NCBI GenBank assembly: GCA_029062005.1
Contig: JAIDQZ010000134.1
Location: forward strand, 1 to 64,000
Length of the DNA stretch: 64,000 nucleotides
DNA from: Muribaculaceae bacterium
Lineage (GTDB): Bacteria > Bacteroidota > Bacteroidia > Bacteroidales > Muribaculaceae
Direction: 5' to 3'
This document shows, piece after piece, positions 16,385 to 60,668 of this stretch; positions within the stretch are counted from its first letter, which is position 1; each line of letters begins with the position of its first letter. The notes below the pieces were generated by a model. That model saw only the letters and a list, made by a program, of their open reading frames with translations, was not told where the DNA came from and ran no database searches. The position numbers were made by a program, and so were the translations under genes.

Positions 16385-17332
16385 ATGAAAGATACTATTT
16401 GTCAGAATGATTGTATGTCGATTGTGGTTCCGGTCTATAACCGACCGGAGCTTGTCGTGCGCTGTCTTGAGAGCATTAAGGCGCAGACATACCGTCCGTT
16501 GCACATCATAGTGGTCGATAATGCTTCATCTGACGATACTGCAGATCGTGTGTCCGTGTGGATGGATTCCAACGCGGCTTCTGACTTTACTGTGGAGTTG
16601 ATCTCTGAATCAAGATCAGGGGCTGCCTATGCCCGGGAGAGGGGGCTTGGCAAAGTACGCACGGAGAAAGTGATGTTTTTTGATTCCGACGATACGATGC
16701 GCCCCGAATGTGTTGATACAGTGATGGATGCATGGATGTCAGCACCTGAAGTGGAAATAGTGGCATGGCGTGTGGCGATTCATTCTGAAGATGGAGTGAG
16801 GATAACGCATGCCATTGAAGGATCTCTTCTTGAGCGTCATCTTGTACATGCTGTCCTGCGTACTCAGGGATATGCCGTAAAGACCGAATTCATACGGCGT
16901 GCAGGTGGATGGAAAGGGGAATTTCCTGTCTGGAATGATCTTGAGACGGGTGTGCGGCTGCTCTTGAATCAACCTGAGGTGAAGGCTCTTCCTGATTTGT
17001 ATGTTGATGTCTTTCATCAGGAGGAAAGCATCACCGGAGTCCGCTTTTCAGATAAGGCAGGCAAATGGGAAAAATCTCTTGATGGAATTGAGCGTAATAT
17101 AAAGGGCAGTGGACGAAAGGATACCTCGCGCCTTCTTGGCATCATCTCTTACCGACGGGCAATACTGGCAGCTTACTATGCAAGGGAAGGTAATCCTGAA
17201 CTGGCTCATCCTCTTTATAGGCGGGCGCTTTCGGAAACGGTAAAAATAAAACGTCCGCTCATCCGTTTTGCCTATCATTGGACTCGGCTTGGGATGCGCG
17301 GAGCGTTTTCTATTATCGGAAGATTCCTTTAG
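16385..17332 (+). CDS. Family 2 glycosyltransferase
   Basis: The 315-aa protein has the GT2 signature: CMSIVVPVYNRPELVVRCLESI, HIIVVDNASSDDTADRV, a Ser/Arg-rich GAAYARERGL stretch, and the DxD motif in KVMFFDSDDTMRPECV. It is divergent from the other glycosyltransferase operon and separated from its promoter by about 40 bp, so the two units share one regulatory region. It probably works in the same surface glycan pathway. It ends convergent with the C1 peptidase gene, with a heptamer repeat array between them. Confidence 0.9.
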   Translation: MKDTICQNDCMSIVVPVYNRPELVVRCLESIKAQTYRPLHIIVVDNASSDDTADRVSVWMDSNAASDFTVELISESRSGAAYARERGLGKVRTEKVMFFDSDDTMRPECVDTVMDAWMSAPEVEIVAWRVAIHSEDGVRITHAIEGSLLERHLVHAVLRTQGYAVKTEFIRRAGGWKGEFPVWNDLETGVRLLLNQPEVKALPDLYVDVFHQEESITGVRFSDKAGKWEKSLDGIERNIKGSGRKDTSRLLGIISYRRAILAAYYAREGNPELAHPLYRRALSETVKIKRPLIRFAYHWTRLGMRGAFSIIGRFL

Positions 17333-17378
17333 ATATTTTTGAATTTTGAATTAGAAATGGAATATTCACTATCCTATT

Positions 17379-17440
17379 TAATTCTCAATTCAAATTTCTC
17401 AATTCTCAATTCTCAATTCTCAATTCTCAATTCTCAATTA
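17379..17440. repeat. AATTCTC heptamer array overlapping the peptidase stop codon
   Basis: Five perfect head-to-tail AATTCTC units lie at 17401-17435, flanked by degenerate copies from 17379. Read on the peptidase coding strand the unit is GAGAATT. The last codons of the peptidase (L-I-E-N-stop) and its TGA fall inside the array. Because the period is 7 nt, TGA recurs in all three frames. The same array type begins at the stop codons at 24262 and 60529. Confidence 0.85.
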
Positions 17441-18818
17441 AGAAAAGGTGATCCCACGATGGCAATGTGATTGGATCCTGCTTCATCGCTTTCAGAATCT
17501 TGGGACTTACATATTTCTTATCCACTACAAGACGGAAAAGATATTCGTTCATCCAGTCATCGGTGGCTATCAGATATCCGTCGTGTCCTGTATTTCCCCA
17601 GCTGTTTTCTATCAGCCATTTTTTAGGTCTCTCCTTCTCGTCAAGATCCACTCCTGAAAGAGTCATTGCATGTGATGAAGCGCTTGCCCATGATGAGATC
17701 CTTTCTGCCTTGTCCATCCCGAACTTTGTGTCGAAAAGCGACTCGTAGTCGAAGTTGTCCATGTCGAGTGTCCCGCGATCCCTGTCGAGGAATTTGCCCA
17801 CGTCACATGAAAAGTACATCGCCGTGCTGTCTTTTATCGATTTGATAGCCGCCTGCTTCAGGTCTTCCATAGGAACATTGAGGTAGGTCCAGTCCATACC
17901 ATCGTAGCTATGGCGGTCATAGTCGATTCTGTATACCTTCCAGTATTCTCGCGAAGGATCGTTCATGAGCATTATATAGTCGTTTTTCAGATCGTTGCCG
18001 AGCAGTTCCTGATAAAATGACTTCGGAGTGTAGCTCTTGGTCTCTATGGCATTCCCTTTGCTGTCTCGTCTTGTCCATGTGAATTCTGTCGGTGGTTCTC
18101 CAAGAGCAAGAGCAAGCATTCTGTAGACTTCTCCGAGTTGTCTTGTCTTCAATCCCTCAAGAGCCTTTTCATCAGCACCTTTCTCCTTTGCCTGCCGAAG
18201 TCGCAGACCGTCCTCGCGCAGTCTTGTGGCGAGGTGGCGGCGGAATGCTGAAGTGCTGTTGGCAATTTCTGTCTCTGCCATAACCTCAGTCGGCACAACT
18301 CCATATTTGCTTACTATGTCTGCAACACCACAGAACGTGCCTCCGTCTGATATAGGATTCTGGAACAGCCATTCCACCTGGCGGTCTTCCATCGGAAGGT
18401 CGGAGGAGTCTATCACTCCCTGCAGGAACAGGTTGGCTTTTTCGAGCTGGTCGAAGAAGAAGTTATAGTTTTGGGAGAATGTCAGCTTGGAAAGGTCATG
18501 TTTTGCCATCGCCTGGGCGCGAAGCACATTCAGTCCTGTAAATAGCCAGCAGCGCCCTGACGATTTCTGGTCGGTGATTCCCTTTGTCTCCACCTTGTGT
18601 GAGAAATGATCGTCAAATTTGTTGCGCACCTTCTCATTGTATGCGAGTTTTTCAATACCCGTGGCATTCATGGCATTGTGCCTTGCCCTGTTGGCGGCAT
18701 TGTCCTCATATCCTTTCTTGAAGCTGCTGAGCATCTCCTGAGTTATTGCCCCCTTGTCGTCGGCTGCCCCCTGCAAAGATGCTGTGATGATGATTGCCAA
18801 TAAGATTCTGCGTATCAT
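17427..18818 (-). CDS. Secreted C1B cysteine peptidase (bleomycin hydrolase / PepC family)
   Basis: The 463-aa protein has a signal peptide (MIRRILLAIIITASLQGAAD) and the papain-like catalytic set of the bleomycin hydrolase family: Cys90 in QKSSGRCWLFTGLNVLR, His in SASSHAMTLSGVD, and Asn in WLIENSWGNTGHDG. C1B members are usually cytosolic aminopeptidases forming hexamers; the Bacteroidales version with a signal peptide is presumably periplasmic or exported. It lies 11 bp downstream of the FemAB/GNAT-like gene and is likely cotranscribed with it. The last residues and the stop codon are encoded by the start of a heptamer repeat array, which suggests that the array has replaced the original 3' end. 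Confidence 0.88.
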   Translation of the reverse strand: MIRRILLAIIITASLQGAADDKGAITQEMLSSFKKGYEDNAANRARHNAMNATGIEKLAYNEKVRNKFDDHFSHKVETKGITDQKSSGRCWLFTGLNVLRAQAMAKHDLSKLTFSQNYNFFFDQLEKANLFLQGVIDSSDLPMEDRQVEWLFQNPISDGGTFCGVADIVSKYGVVPTEVMAETEIANSTSAFRRHLATRLREDGLRLRQAKEKGADEKALEGLKTRQLGEVYRMLALALGEPPTEFTWTRRDSKGNAIETKSYTPKSFYQELLGNDLKNDYIMLMNDPSREYWKVYRIDYDRHSYDGMDWTYLNVPMEDLKQAAIKSIKDSTAMYFSCDVGKFLDRDRGTLDMDNFDYESLFDTKFGMDKAERISSWASASSHAMTLSGVDLDEKERPKKWLIENSWGNTGHDGYLIATDDWMNEYLFRLVVDKKYVSPKILKAMKQDPITLPSWDHLFLIEN

Positions 18819-24060: not shown

Positions 24061-24262
24061 TTTGTTTGTTGTTAAGTTTTGAGGTTGTTGGGTTGTTGAG
24101 TTGTTGGGTTGTTGGGTTGTTGGGGTTTTTGAGTTTTGAGGTTTTGAGGTTGTTGAGTTGTTGAGGTTTTTGAGGTTTGGGGTTGTTGAGAGAAATAAGA
24201 TAATTATTAAAAATTCTCAATTCTCAATTCTCAATTATAAAAAATTCTCAATTCCCAATTAT
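24061..24262 (-). repeat. Composite boundary repeat (GAGAATT array plus C/A-rich array)
   Basis: On the coding strand the spacer from the GH105-fusion stop codon to the xylE start consists of TAATTGGGAATTGAGAATT-type units, a linker AATAATTATCTTATTTCTCTC, then a long array of CAACAACCC / CCTCAAAAC units reaching almost to the xylE ATG. The same order and linker recur at 60508-60668. It contains nothing else recognisable. Confidence 0.85.
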
Positions 24263-26580
24263 TAAAAGAGATCCCTGAGTTTGCCTCCGTCTTCCCAATG
24301 GTGGTCTTTTGGGAATGGCAGTCCTCCCCAGGCCTTCTGATTGGTGGTGGGAAGCGGGGCATCCGTCCAGAATGGGTGTGAAGCCGGAAGCCCGAGCGGC
24401 AGGAACGCCAGTGAAGTCATATAGAGGCTGCCGTTGTTTGTATACCAGTCGGCGATATTGGGCTGACGTCCGGCAAAACCGATAGTGAGGAAACCTCCTT
24501 CATTGAAGTTTTCCTTGCCGTCATACATGGAGTGCATCACCGATGTCAGTGCGTTGCGCACCTGTCCGTTTGTTAGTCCGGCTGGAAGTTTTTCGTACCA
24601 TGCCATTAAAGCAAGCGGCTGCATGGTAGCCATGCGGTAAGGTATCGAACGCCCGAACACCGGGAAAGTTCCTTCAGGAGAGATCATGCGTTCAAGCACT
24701 ATGCTGTATTTCTGGGCGCGTTTAAGAGCCCTGTCGTAATATTTCGGATAGTGTATTCTTGTCCTTGCCTTTGCATCCTTCATGTTCTGAAGTGTCTCAA
24801 GATACATTGGATGAAACACATAGCTGCTGTAATAGTCATAAGCGAAATCCGGTCCGTCGGCATACCATCCGTCGCCCGTGTACCATTCCTCCATCTTTCT
24901 GATCGCGGAGTTAACCCTGTATTGGTCATAGTCTCCCCCTGCTTTTGCCATGAAGCTTTCCAGAATAGATGAGAAGAGAAGCCAGTTGGTGTAGGGTGGA
25001 TCAATGTTTCTGAGCTGCTTGAAATTATTCAGATACCTATCTTTTGTCTTGCTGTCAAGGGGCTCCCAGAGCGCGTCGTAGGCGCGGATGAAACTTTCTG
25101 CGATATATGCGGCATCCACGAGTATCTGTCCCTCTCCCTGCCACAGCAGGCAGTCTGGCGAATCAGGATCCACAGCGTTGGCATAGCTTTTAAGCGCCAT
25201 TTCGCGGAGTTCCTTTCTCATTTTCCCTTCTTCAGTGTCATCGTCAGGAAGAGCGAGCCAGGGAGCGATTCCTGCCATGAGCCTGCCGAAAGTCTCCATA
25301 TAAGTCACTTTCTTATTGCGTCCGTCCCAGTTGGGGCTTACTTCCACTATCATTTCATCCTGCAGTTTCCCTTCCGACATTTTGCTGAGTACAGGGTAAG
25401 CTATGCTGTATGCAAGATTAGTCCAGTATTTGCGGTCAGGATTACTGTCTTTCTCAAGATGCTTCACATATTCGCATGCGGCAAGCAGGAAAGCCCCTGT
25501 ACCGAAATCCGATGTGGAGTTTTTATCCACCACCTGCCCCGGGATCGCTTTCTCACCAATAGGTTGCACATAACCGATTCGCCCGTCTTTCTGGAGCGCT
25601 TTTGTGCTGAGATATTGCCATCCTTTGAGGGCTGCATCGAGATATTTAGGATCAGTGAGGTAGCCGTTGTTGATACCCCACAGAAGTCCGTAGGTGAAGA
25701 ATGCTGTTCCGCTTGTCTCCGGTCCCGGAGCATGAGCCTCGTCAAGCATCGAGCGGCTCCAGTATCCCCCCGGTTGTTGTGATGCGGTCACAGCATCTGC
25801 GAGCTCTCGGTAGCGCTGTTCGAAGATATCGCGGTGTGCATAATCTTCAGGAAGATCCTGAAGCACTTTTGCGAGTCCCGCAAGCACCCATCCGTCGCCT
25901 CGTGCCCAGAAATCTTTCTTGCCGTTGGCACTCTCATGCTTGGGATACACATATTTGGCATCTCTGTAGTAGAGATGGTCGTCTTTGTCATACATAAGGC
26001 TGTCAGCATACACGAAATATTCATGAAGCTTGTCAAGATACTTTGTATTTCCTGTTGCCTTGTAGAGCTTCGTCATCACCGGCATCACCATATATAGCCC
26101 GTCTGCCCACCACCAGTAGTCTTTCTGAGGCGTGGACATCTGGTGCTCCATAACCTCGCGGGCACGGCGGATGCGCTTGTCTTCGGGAAGGATGTCGTAG
26201 AGGTCGGCGTATGTCTGGAAGCATATCTGCCAGTCTCCGAAGAGGACATGATCCTGCGATTCTCCATAGGTGGCATATTTCCATTTGCTTCTGTCGTTGC
26301 CCTTGGCTCCTTTCCAGTCATTATGGTTTGCCCAGTCTTCGGAATATCGGAGCCAGTCACGGTTACCTGTCAGTCGGTACGCCTCCATGTTGCCTGTGTG
26401 GTATGCCGCCACGTGCCAGAACGGTGTGGACTGCGGATGATTGTTTTTTTGCCAGTTGTCGTTGACTTTCTTTATCATCGCCCTCACTTTTTGCGCTTCG
26501 TCGGCATTGGCGGCGAAGACCGCGGAGAATGTAGCGGTAATGGAGAGCAAGATTATTGATAATCTCTTGAAGTTGATCAT
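24262..26580 (-). CDS. GH105 unsaturated uronyl hydrolase fused to a DUF2264 (GH154-type) domain
   Basis: I start at 26580 (MINFKRLSIILLSITATFSAVFA, a signal peptide), 772 aa; the upstream ORF start at 26631 lies above the promoter. Residues of about 30-395 form the alpha6/alpha6 GH105/GH88 barrel, with the expected Asp residues in WWWADGLYMVMPVMTKLY and FWARGDGWVLAGLAKVL and the motif STSDFGTGAFLLAACEY. From about residue 405 to the end is a DUF2264 domain (LAYSIAYPVLSKM, METFGRLMAGIAPWLAL, WLLFSSILESFMA, YSSYVFHPMYLE, ISPEGTFPVFGRSIPYR), which I recall as CAZy family GH154 with beta-glucuronidase activity. Together it would remove saturated and unsaturated uronic acids. The fusion is intact with no stop or frameshift. 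Confidence 0.85.
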   Translation of the reverse strand: MINFKRLSIILLSITATFSAVFAANADEAQKVRAMIKKVNDNWQKNNHPQSTPFWHVAAYHTGNMEAYRLTGNRDWLRYSEDWANHNDWKGAKGNDRSKWKYATYGESQDHVLFGDWQICFQTYADLYDILPEDKRIRRAREVMEHQMSTPQKDYWWWADGLYMVMPVMTKLYKATGNTKYLDKLHEYFVYADSLMYDKDDHLYYRDAKYVYPKHESANGKKDFWARGDGWVLAGLAKVLQDLPEDYAHRDIFEQRYRELADAVTASQQPGGYWSRSMLDEAHAPGPETSGTAFFTYGLLWGINNGYLTDPKYLDAALKGWQYLSTKALQKDGRIGYVQPIGEKAIPGQVVDKNSTSDFGTGAFLLAACEYVKHLEKDSNPDRKYWTNLAYSIAYPVLSKMSEGKLQDEMIVEVSPNWDGRNKKVTYMETFGRLMAGIAPWLALPDDDTEEGKMRKELREMALKSYANAVDPDSPDCLLWQGEGQILVDAAYIAESFIRAYDALWEPLDSKTKDRYLNNFKQLRNIDPPYTNWLLFSSILESFMAKAGGDYDQYRVNSAIRKMEEWYTGDGWYADGPDFAYDYYSSYVFHPMYLETLQNMKDAKARTRIHYPKYYDRALKRAQKYSIVLERMISPEGTFPVFGRSIPYRMATMQPLALMAWYEKLPAGLTNGQVRNALTSVMHSMYDGKENFNEGGFLTIGFAGRQPNIADWYTNNGSLYMTSLAFLPLGLPASHPFWTDAPLPTTNQKAWGGLPFPKDHHWEDGGKLRDLF

Positions 26581-26611
26581 GACGTATAGGTGTCTTATTT
26601 GGAAATTACTG

Positions 26612-26644
26612 CAAAAGTAATCAAAAAACATGAAATATCACCAA
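26612..26644 (-). promoter_or_regulatory. Promoter of the GH105-DUF2264 gene
   Basis: The minus strand has TTGG (one mismatch to TTTG), 21 nt, then TACTTTTG, a perfect TAnnTTTG. It lies about 32 nt upstream of the ATG at 26580 and downstream of the ORF-track start. Confidence 0.55.
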
Positions 26645-48366: not shown

Positions 48367-51283
<2,917 letters not shown>

Positions 51284-59392: not shown

Positions 59393-60529
59393 ATGAAAAA
59401 GCACTTATTACCATATTTCTGCATAACCGTTTTAGTCGCTTCGTGCTCATCCTCGAATGCAGAGCAGATACCAACCGTAAAGGACCATTTTAAAGATGAT
59501 TTCCTGATAGGCGCGGCTTTACCTGTGCGTCATGTCGATGGTATGGATCCGAAGGCAGACTCGATCGTAACCCTGCATTTTAATTCGATTGTGGCTGAAA
59601 ACTGCATGAAAAATGAAAAAATTCAGCCGGAAGAGGGAAAATTCTTCTGGGATGATGCCGATAAGTTTGTGAAGTACGGTGAAGACCGTGATATGGCGAT
59701 AATCGGGCATGCTCTTGTATGGCATTCACAGCTCGCTCCATGGTTCACAAAGGATGCCGTTGGAAACGAAGTAAGTCCGGATGTCCTGAAGCAGCGTATG
59801 AAAGATCATATCTATGCCGTAGTTGGCAGATATAAAGGAAAGATAAAAGGCTGGGATGTTGTCAATGAGGCTATCGTAGATGACGGAAGCTACCGTAACT
59901 CCCCCTTCTACCGCATACTCGGCGAGGATTACATCCCTCTCGCATTCCAATATGCACATGAGGCGGATCCGGATGCTGAACTCTACATCAACGACTTCTC
60001 GATGTTCCTTCCTGAGAAAAGAGAGGCTTACGTGAAGATCGTCAACGATCTCAAGAAACGCGGAATACGTATCGACGGCATAGGTATGCAGAGCCATATA
60101 GGTATGGATTATCCTGAATTTGACGAGTATGAGAAGAGTATCGTCGCTTTCGGCAATACAGGCTGCGACGTTATGATAACGGAACTTGATATGTCTGCTC
60201 TTCCCACAATAGAGAAGGGCGCCGACATAGGCGCAATCTTCCGCATGACTCCCGAAGAACGACGTGAGGCATTGAAGAAATTCAATGTATATCCCGACGG
60301 TCTTCCCGAAGATGTCAGCAAAGAATGGAATGACCGTATGGCTCAGGTATTTGCCCTTTATAAAAAGCATTCCGACAAGATATCACGTGTCACCTGGTGG
60401 GGCACTACTGACGGTATGTCATGGAAAAACGGTTTCCCTATCCCGGGACGTACGGATTATCCCCTGCTCTTCGACCGCGAATACAACATGAAGCCTTTCA
60501 TGCAGAAAATAATTGAGAACTTAGAATAA
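59393..60529 (+). CDS. Second GH10 xylanase lipoprotein
   Basis: The 378-aa protein has a lipoprotein signal with Cys18 ([12 protein letters not shown]) and a compact GH10 barrel: [11 protein letters not shown]-like [16 protein letters not shown], acid/base Glu159 in [24 protein letters not shown] and nucleophile Glu264 in [10 protein letters not shown], ending [16 protein letters not shown]. Only about 360 residues after the anchor, it has no extra modules, so it probably acts on shorter xylo-oligosaccharides inside the outer membrane, in contrast to the core GH10 at 47 kb. The last codons (I-I-E-N-L-E-stop) are part of the GAGAATT-type repeat that fills the space to the next gene. Confidence 0.93.
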
Positions 60530-60668
60530 TTGAGAATTGAGAATTGAGAATTTAGAATTTAGAATAATTGTCTAATTTCCCTCCACAACCTCAAAACCTC
60601 AAGACTCCACAACCTCACAACCTCAAAACCCCACAACTCCACAACCAAAAAACTCAAAAACCAAAAAA
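60508..60668 (+). repeat. Composite boundary repeat (GAGAATT array plus C/A-rich array)
   Basis: From the last codons of GH10 the sequence is AATTGAGAAC-type heptamers, then AATAATTGTCTAATTTCCCTC, then about 80 bp of CACAACCTCAAAACC-type units ending at the GH43 ATG at 60670. Order, linker and orientation match the element at 24061-24262. An ORF-track start with TTG at 60568 reads through the C/A-rich array and is not credible. Confidence 0.85.

Follow-up and report, generated by a model that had tools for sequence, protein, structure and literature searches.

In the 64,000-nucleotide stretch of Muribaculaceae DNA analyzed here (the window), a gene for a C1B (bleomycin-hydrolase-type) peptidase was identified on the minus strand (17427–18818), whose product matches Pfam Peptidase_C1_2 over residues 25–458. 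It is convergent with a gene on the plus strand encoding a family 2 glycosyltransferase (16385–17332). At the end of the peptidase gene, six contiguous perfect AATTGAG units run on the minus strand from 17439 down to 17398, as read directly, with the head of the array at 17439 and its tail towards 17398. The five perfect AATTCTC units described at 17401–17435 in an earlier note, made from the sequence alone, are present in it, and with decayed units included the period-7 tract extends over 17380–17439 with 8.6 copies (TRF). A heptamer-like degenerate stretch (TTTTTGAATTTTGAATTAGA, 17336–17355, plus strand) is located 3′ of the glycosyltransferase stop and is a candidate for a decayed second arm of the array. 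An Rfam scan of the window returned tRNA only, and a literature search on the exact unit AATTGAG yielded no relevant paper. A chance origin of the repeat is excluded, since the near-dimer AATTGAGAATTGAG, with up to two mismatches, has 15 matches in the window versus 0.98 expected (none of 100 shuffles reached 15), and the whole genome contains 100 exact AATTGAG dimers (46 + 54) versus none of the reversed control pattern.

The array supplies the stop codon and the last residues of the peptidase, as the earlier note had proposed. The TGA (17429–17427, minus strand) lies in the second AATTGAG unit, and the preceding codons TTA ATT GAG AAT (17430–17441) encode L-I-E-N, of which I-E-N is wholly array-derived, so that the protein ends with ...PSWDHLFLIEN. 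Orthologues from same-genus genomes and GTDB genomes are alike as far as WDHLF or a closely similar motif (WDQLF), and their tails diverge after that point. Close orthologues (73–89% identity) without AATTGAG end with LNN, LND, LYN, MND, TNS, LKD, ITN, SNDE, SAEE or LKEDIR, or have no tail. Among the orthologues compared, LIEN is confined to the window and one relative (L196, 87% identity), which has its own AATTGAG array at the peptidase end; the ending LIEN in an array-less relative, named beforehand as evidence against this origin, was not encountered. As LIEN is restricted to these two proteins, both with AATTGAG at this position, two or three variable residues have been replaced by the array.

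The altered residues fall outside the matched Pfam domain. In an alignment, five residues follow WDHL in the window peptidase and five follow WDPM in human BLMH, which places LIEN at the position of the C-terminal arm of the family. In bleomycin hydrolases this arm enters the active site. The AlphaFold model leaves the location of LIEN undefined, with a mean confidence of 40 for the last three residues. The peptidase exemplifies how a repeat located between genes can alter the C-terminal end in an enzyme family whose arm is part of the active site. A phase-variable contingency locus, in which the number of units would switch the C-terminus, is suggested by the arm position of the replaced tail and by the copy number, with six perfect units here versus about half as many in L196. 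Such a switch is extremely improbable, since the second unit already contains the TGA and any further units leave both the product and the frame unchanged.

The AATTGAG strand reads AAT TGA GAA TTG AGA ATT GAG and offers one TGA per 21 nt in each frame, and no stop occurs in any of the three frames of the CTCAATT strand. The idea that the array ends translation wherever it lands holds for the AATTGAG strand, if about three units are present, and fails for the stop-free CTCAATT strand, so that the orientation of an array matters. The relation to a stop codon seen at the peptidase had also been described in the earlier note for 24262, 51230 and 60529, and it was found at the last of these positions only. 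There, a third AATTGAG array (60511–60565, plus strand) covers the end of a GH10 gene and provides its last residues (…IIENLE) and its stop. The second array of the window (24202–24260, minus strand) begins just past the TAA of a GH88/DUF2264 gene (24262–26631), and three relatives with a different downstream sequence also end with TAA there. At 51229–51242 (plus strand), 3′ of the TAA of an esterase gene, a lone AATTGAG with a decayed unit is located, which is not an array.

Throughout this Muribaculaceae genome, an assembly of 152 contigs, about 50 AATTGAG arrays were found, mostly in intergenic regions. The surroundings of every exact dimer were fetched and genes were called by a simple dicodon-model gene finder of our own, so that the gene starts are predictions; one assembly per species was used. 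The head of an array (TAATTGAG edge) is closer to its gene than the tail in 41 of the 43 arrays which are flanked by genes on both sides (p = 2 × 10⁻¹⁰), with median distances from array edge to gene of 15 nt for the head and 105 nt for the tail. This rule applies to gene ends (25:1) and independently to gene starts (16:1), which shows that it is not due to stop codons. Between codirectional genes, 20 arrays have the same orientation and 13 the opposite one, a weak preference, and the bias lies in the edge-to-gene distance. A T precedes the head in 45 of the 50 arrays, and the unit words GAG, TAG and TTG follow each other from head to tail beyond chance (p = 1.5 × 10⁻⁴).

A stop codon is overlapped by only seven of the 50 arrays, resulting in protein ends such as LIEN, RIEN, NN, NIN and LE. 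Termination of translation, which the earlier note had taken for the general relation of the arrays to genes, is not supported by this count, by the gene at 24262 with its own stop, or by the arrays at gene starts, which are placed in the same way. Selection could have kept the array as a safety device that stops translation in all three frames, a reading to which the TGA in every frame of the AATTGAG strand, the nearer position of the head in 25 of the 26 arrays oriented with it towards a gene end, and the seven genes that draw their stop from an array would all lend themselves. It is very doubtful, since so few arrays overlap a stop and 17 arrays head to a gene start with a stop-free sense strand, yet are placed likewise. 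Moreover, the Xanthomonas unit GGGAATC, which has a similar layout (PMC4692102), is stop-free in every frame by direct reading. Most likely, the array is not a stop-codon device and its overlap with the coding end is incidental.

The preference for 7 bp is not restricted to one unit. In 459 kb of this genome, 11 intergenic lag runs were detected at 7 bp, three at 8 bp, one at 9 bp and none at 6 or 10 bp, and the 7-bp runs comprise about six different, unrelated units. In a further genome (G051), 15 runs at 7 bp were found, and none in more distant genomes of the same genus. As in other heptamer repeats, the 7-bp unit is over-represented compared with other lengths and the array length differs between species. 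Of 295 Bacteroidales genomes, 32 contain AATTKDG triplets, and they are spread across 28 of the 184 genera. The head rule was recovered in another genus (G131, 14:2) and also with AATKCAT, a unit of unrelated sequence (G051 and G005 combined, 24:5); in a different family the direction is the same (6:1), with too few arrays to count. Three successive AATKCAT units are absent from the window genome and occur 107 times in another one (G054), where AATTGAG dimers are found seven times versus 100 times here. This shows that the unit sequence is a dialect that differs between genomes.

The gap between the peptidase and glycosyltransferase genes was compared among relatives. Five of them carry TGCATAA/TTCATAA units as inverted arms around a core of about 45 nt. 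TGATTAA is present in another relative and TTATTAA in yet another, and several relatives have no array, including the close relatives L192, L194 and L198. Because these states interleave on the gene tree, arrays have been repeatedly gained, lost or rewritten at this gap. Long hairpins are formed in the five two-armed relatives (z −3.4 to −9.2). For the gap of the window, folding does not exceed that of shuffled sequences (z −1.0), and its hairpin is not significant. In this genome, gaps with arrays show a modest excess of structure over the remaining gaps (median z −2.3 vs. −1.25, p = 0.015), and inverted array pairs are found in single gaps. The window gap most likely keeps one arm of a former two-armed structure.

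It is conceivable, and on balance unlikely, that the arms are functional RNA or DNA elements acting as terminators or protectors of mRNA 3′ ends, with the pairing being selected while the letters drift. The inverted arms flanking short cores, the strong hairpins which relatives build from different letters at the peptidase gap, and the inverted pairs known for Xanthomonas heptamers (PMC4692102) are consistent with such a role. Against this, one unit per species, used genome-wide, makes the arms complementary without selection, the hairpin of the window is weak, and the array is absent from the gap in the three close relatives named above.

The number of arrays, their placement, inverted arms, dialects and turnover argue instead that the array belongs to a family of intergenic heptamer repeats dispersed in the genome, and this reading is considered probable. 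Replication slippage in steps of 7 bp would lengthen and shorten the arrays, and recombination or template switching would copy or re-seed them at other places in the genome. In gaps they would form both arms of an inverted, hairpin-capable structure that turns over fast. In the case of the peptidase gene, one arm may have advanced with its head by a few codons into the gene's non-conserved tail; since TGA occurs in all frames of the AATTGAG strand, this encroachment ends within five codons. Any function would likeliest be that of a hairpin between converging transcripts (terminator or 3′-end protection) in the relatives with both arms; as the hairpin is weak in this genome, the array at the peptidase is probably neutral. 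Against this reading, slippage alone does not put one unit in 50 places, and it leaves the gene-facing head unaccounted for. The z of the window gap and the modest structure of the array gaps taken together also weigh against the hairpin part of this reading.

A mobile element of REP/MITE type, with heptamer arrays as its ends by coincidence, would fit the recurring cores beside arrays (AATTGGCTTCGC in G051, GATTTGGCTTGGG in this genome) and the palindromes GGTAGGGACGCACG nearby. It is quite unlikely, since neither a constant core nor a target duplication was found at the arrays, some arrays have no core, and the only Y1 transposase (PF01797) in the genome is one weak match (G000:C70:36065–36259). 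Owing to this single match, the Y1 transposase was rejected as the mover of the arrays. REP-like palindromes (GGTAGGGACGCACG...CGTGCGTCCCTACC) are dispersed in gaps of loci L041 (6850–6960), L042, L047, L059, L066 and L070. In G051, AATKCAT arms inverted around the core AATTGGCTTCGC...GCGAAGCCAATT occur in several gaps (loci L263, L266, L274).

Many bacteria have an excess of heptamer arrays, which raises the question of why the unit is 7 bp long. In Xanthomonas and Nostoc, the heptamers GGGAATC and GGGGA(C/T)T form mostly intergenic arrays of 2–26 copies (Rehm et al., 2015, PMC4692102). For the Xanthomonas GGGAATC arrays, a distance of 28 nt to the 5′ neighbouring ORF versus 160 nt to the next one and 70–75 inverted pairs were reported, and quadruplexes were discussed (PMC4692102). 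The AATTGAG arrays resemble them in the 7-bp unit, the intergenic location, the proximity to the 5′ ORF, the inverted pairs within one gap and the variation of length and sequence between close species. However, the GGGAATC unit has runs of at least three G and is quadruplex-capable, whereas AATTGAG and AATKCAT, from a different phylum, have no G-tracts and cannot form quadruplexes. Since AATTGAG arrays are nevertheless placed like GGGAATC arrays, quadruplexes are not the general cause of this layout. The like placement in Xanthomonas, according to the literature, and in Bacteroidales with non-quadruplex units eliminates one of the causes put forward and brings the question within reach of tests in cultured Muribaculaceae.

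A second group comprises the TAACTGA direct repeats of Beggiatoaceae, Cyanobacteria and a few Bacteroidetes (MacGregor, 2015, PMC4679880). Their forward strand has stops in all three frames, which bounds the overlap with ORF ends, and the reverse strand is open (PMC4679880). The AATTGAG arrays share the heptamer length, the three-frame stops on one strand and, in some sets, the overlap with upstream ORF ends. They differ in their letters and in placement: TAACTGA repeats lie mostly forward directly 5′ of start codons, whereas AATTGAG arrays follow stops with the head and precede starts in reverse. In the survey of Mrazek et al. (2007), as cited in PMC4692102 and PMC4679880, 7 bp is the commonest unit length of long SSRs in prokaryotes, and slippage governed by the polymerase footprint was proposed for it; the survey predates this lineage, and the placement rule is not described in what is cited from it. 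The AATTGAG arrays belong to a known, poorly understood class of bacterial intergenic heptamer repeats, to which they add a new member.

A more general, rather speculative and unlikely explanation is that a letter-blind process, common to Xanthomonas and Bacteroidales, writes 7-bp arrays outward from gene boundaries. Both arms of a gap would then receive the same unit, the hairpin would be kept while its sequence is replaced between species, and the unit would be the dialect of a species. If this is true, quadruplexes are ruled out as the cause of the process.

Seven of the arrays are found no more than about 300 nt from the end of a contig (contigs C20, C29, C39, C80, C96, C139 and C142 of this genome), as if the contig breaks there were caused by repeats in assembly. 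Arrays of a further heptamer, CAAGAGT/CAAGAAC, were observed in loci L049, L050, L069, L071 and L072, often adjoining AATTGAG arrays. Finally, 8-bp tandem arrays (CAACCTCA, CACAACCT and similar) separate heptamer arrays from the start codon that follows. In the window, a CAACCTCA-type array (24068–24188, minus strand) lies between the tail of the second heptamer array and the start of a sugar transporter gene, and another 8-bp array (60581–60668, plus strand) reaches the start of a GH43 gene; further examples are found in L071 (6540–6596) and L072 (2820–2909). These 8-bp arrays are C/A-rich and free of stops in the sense direction.
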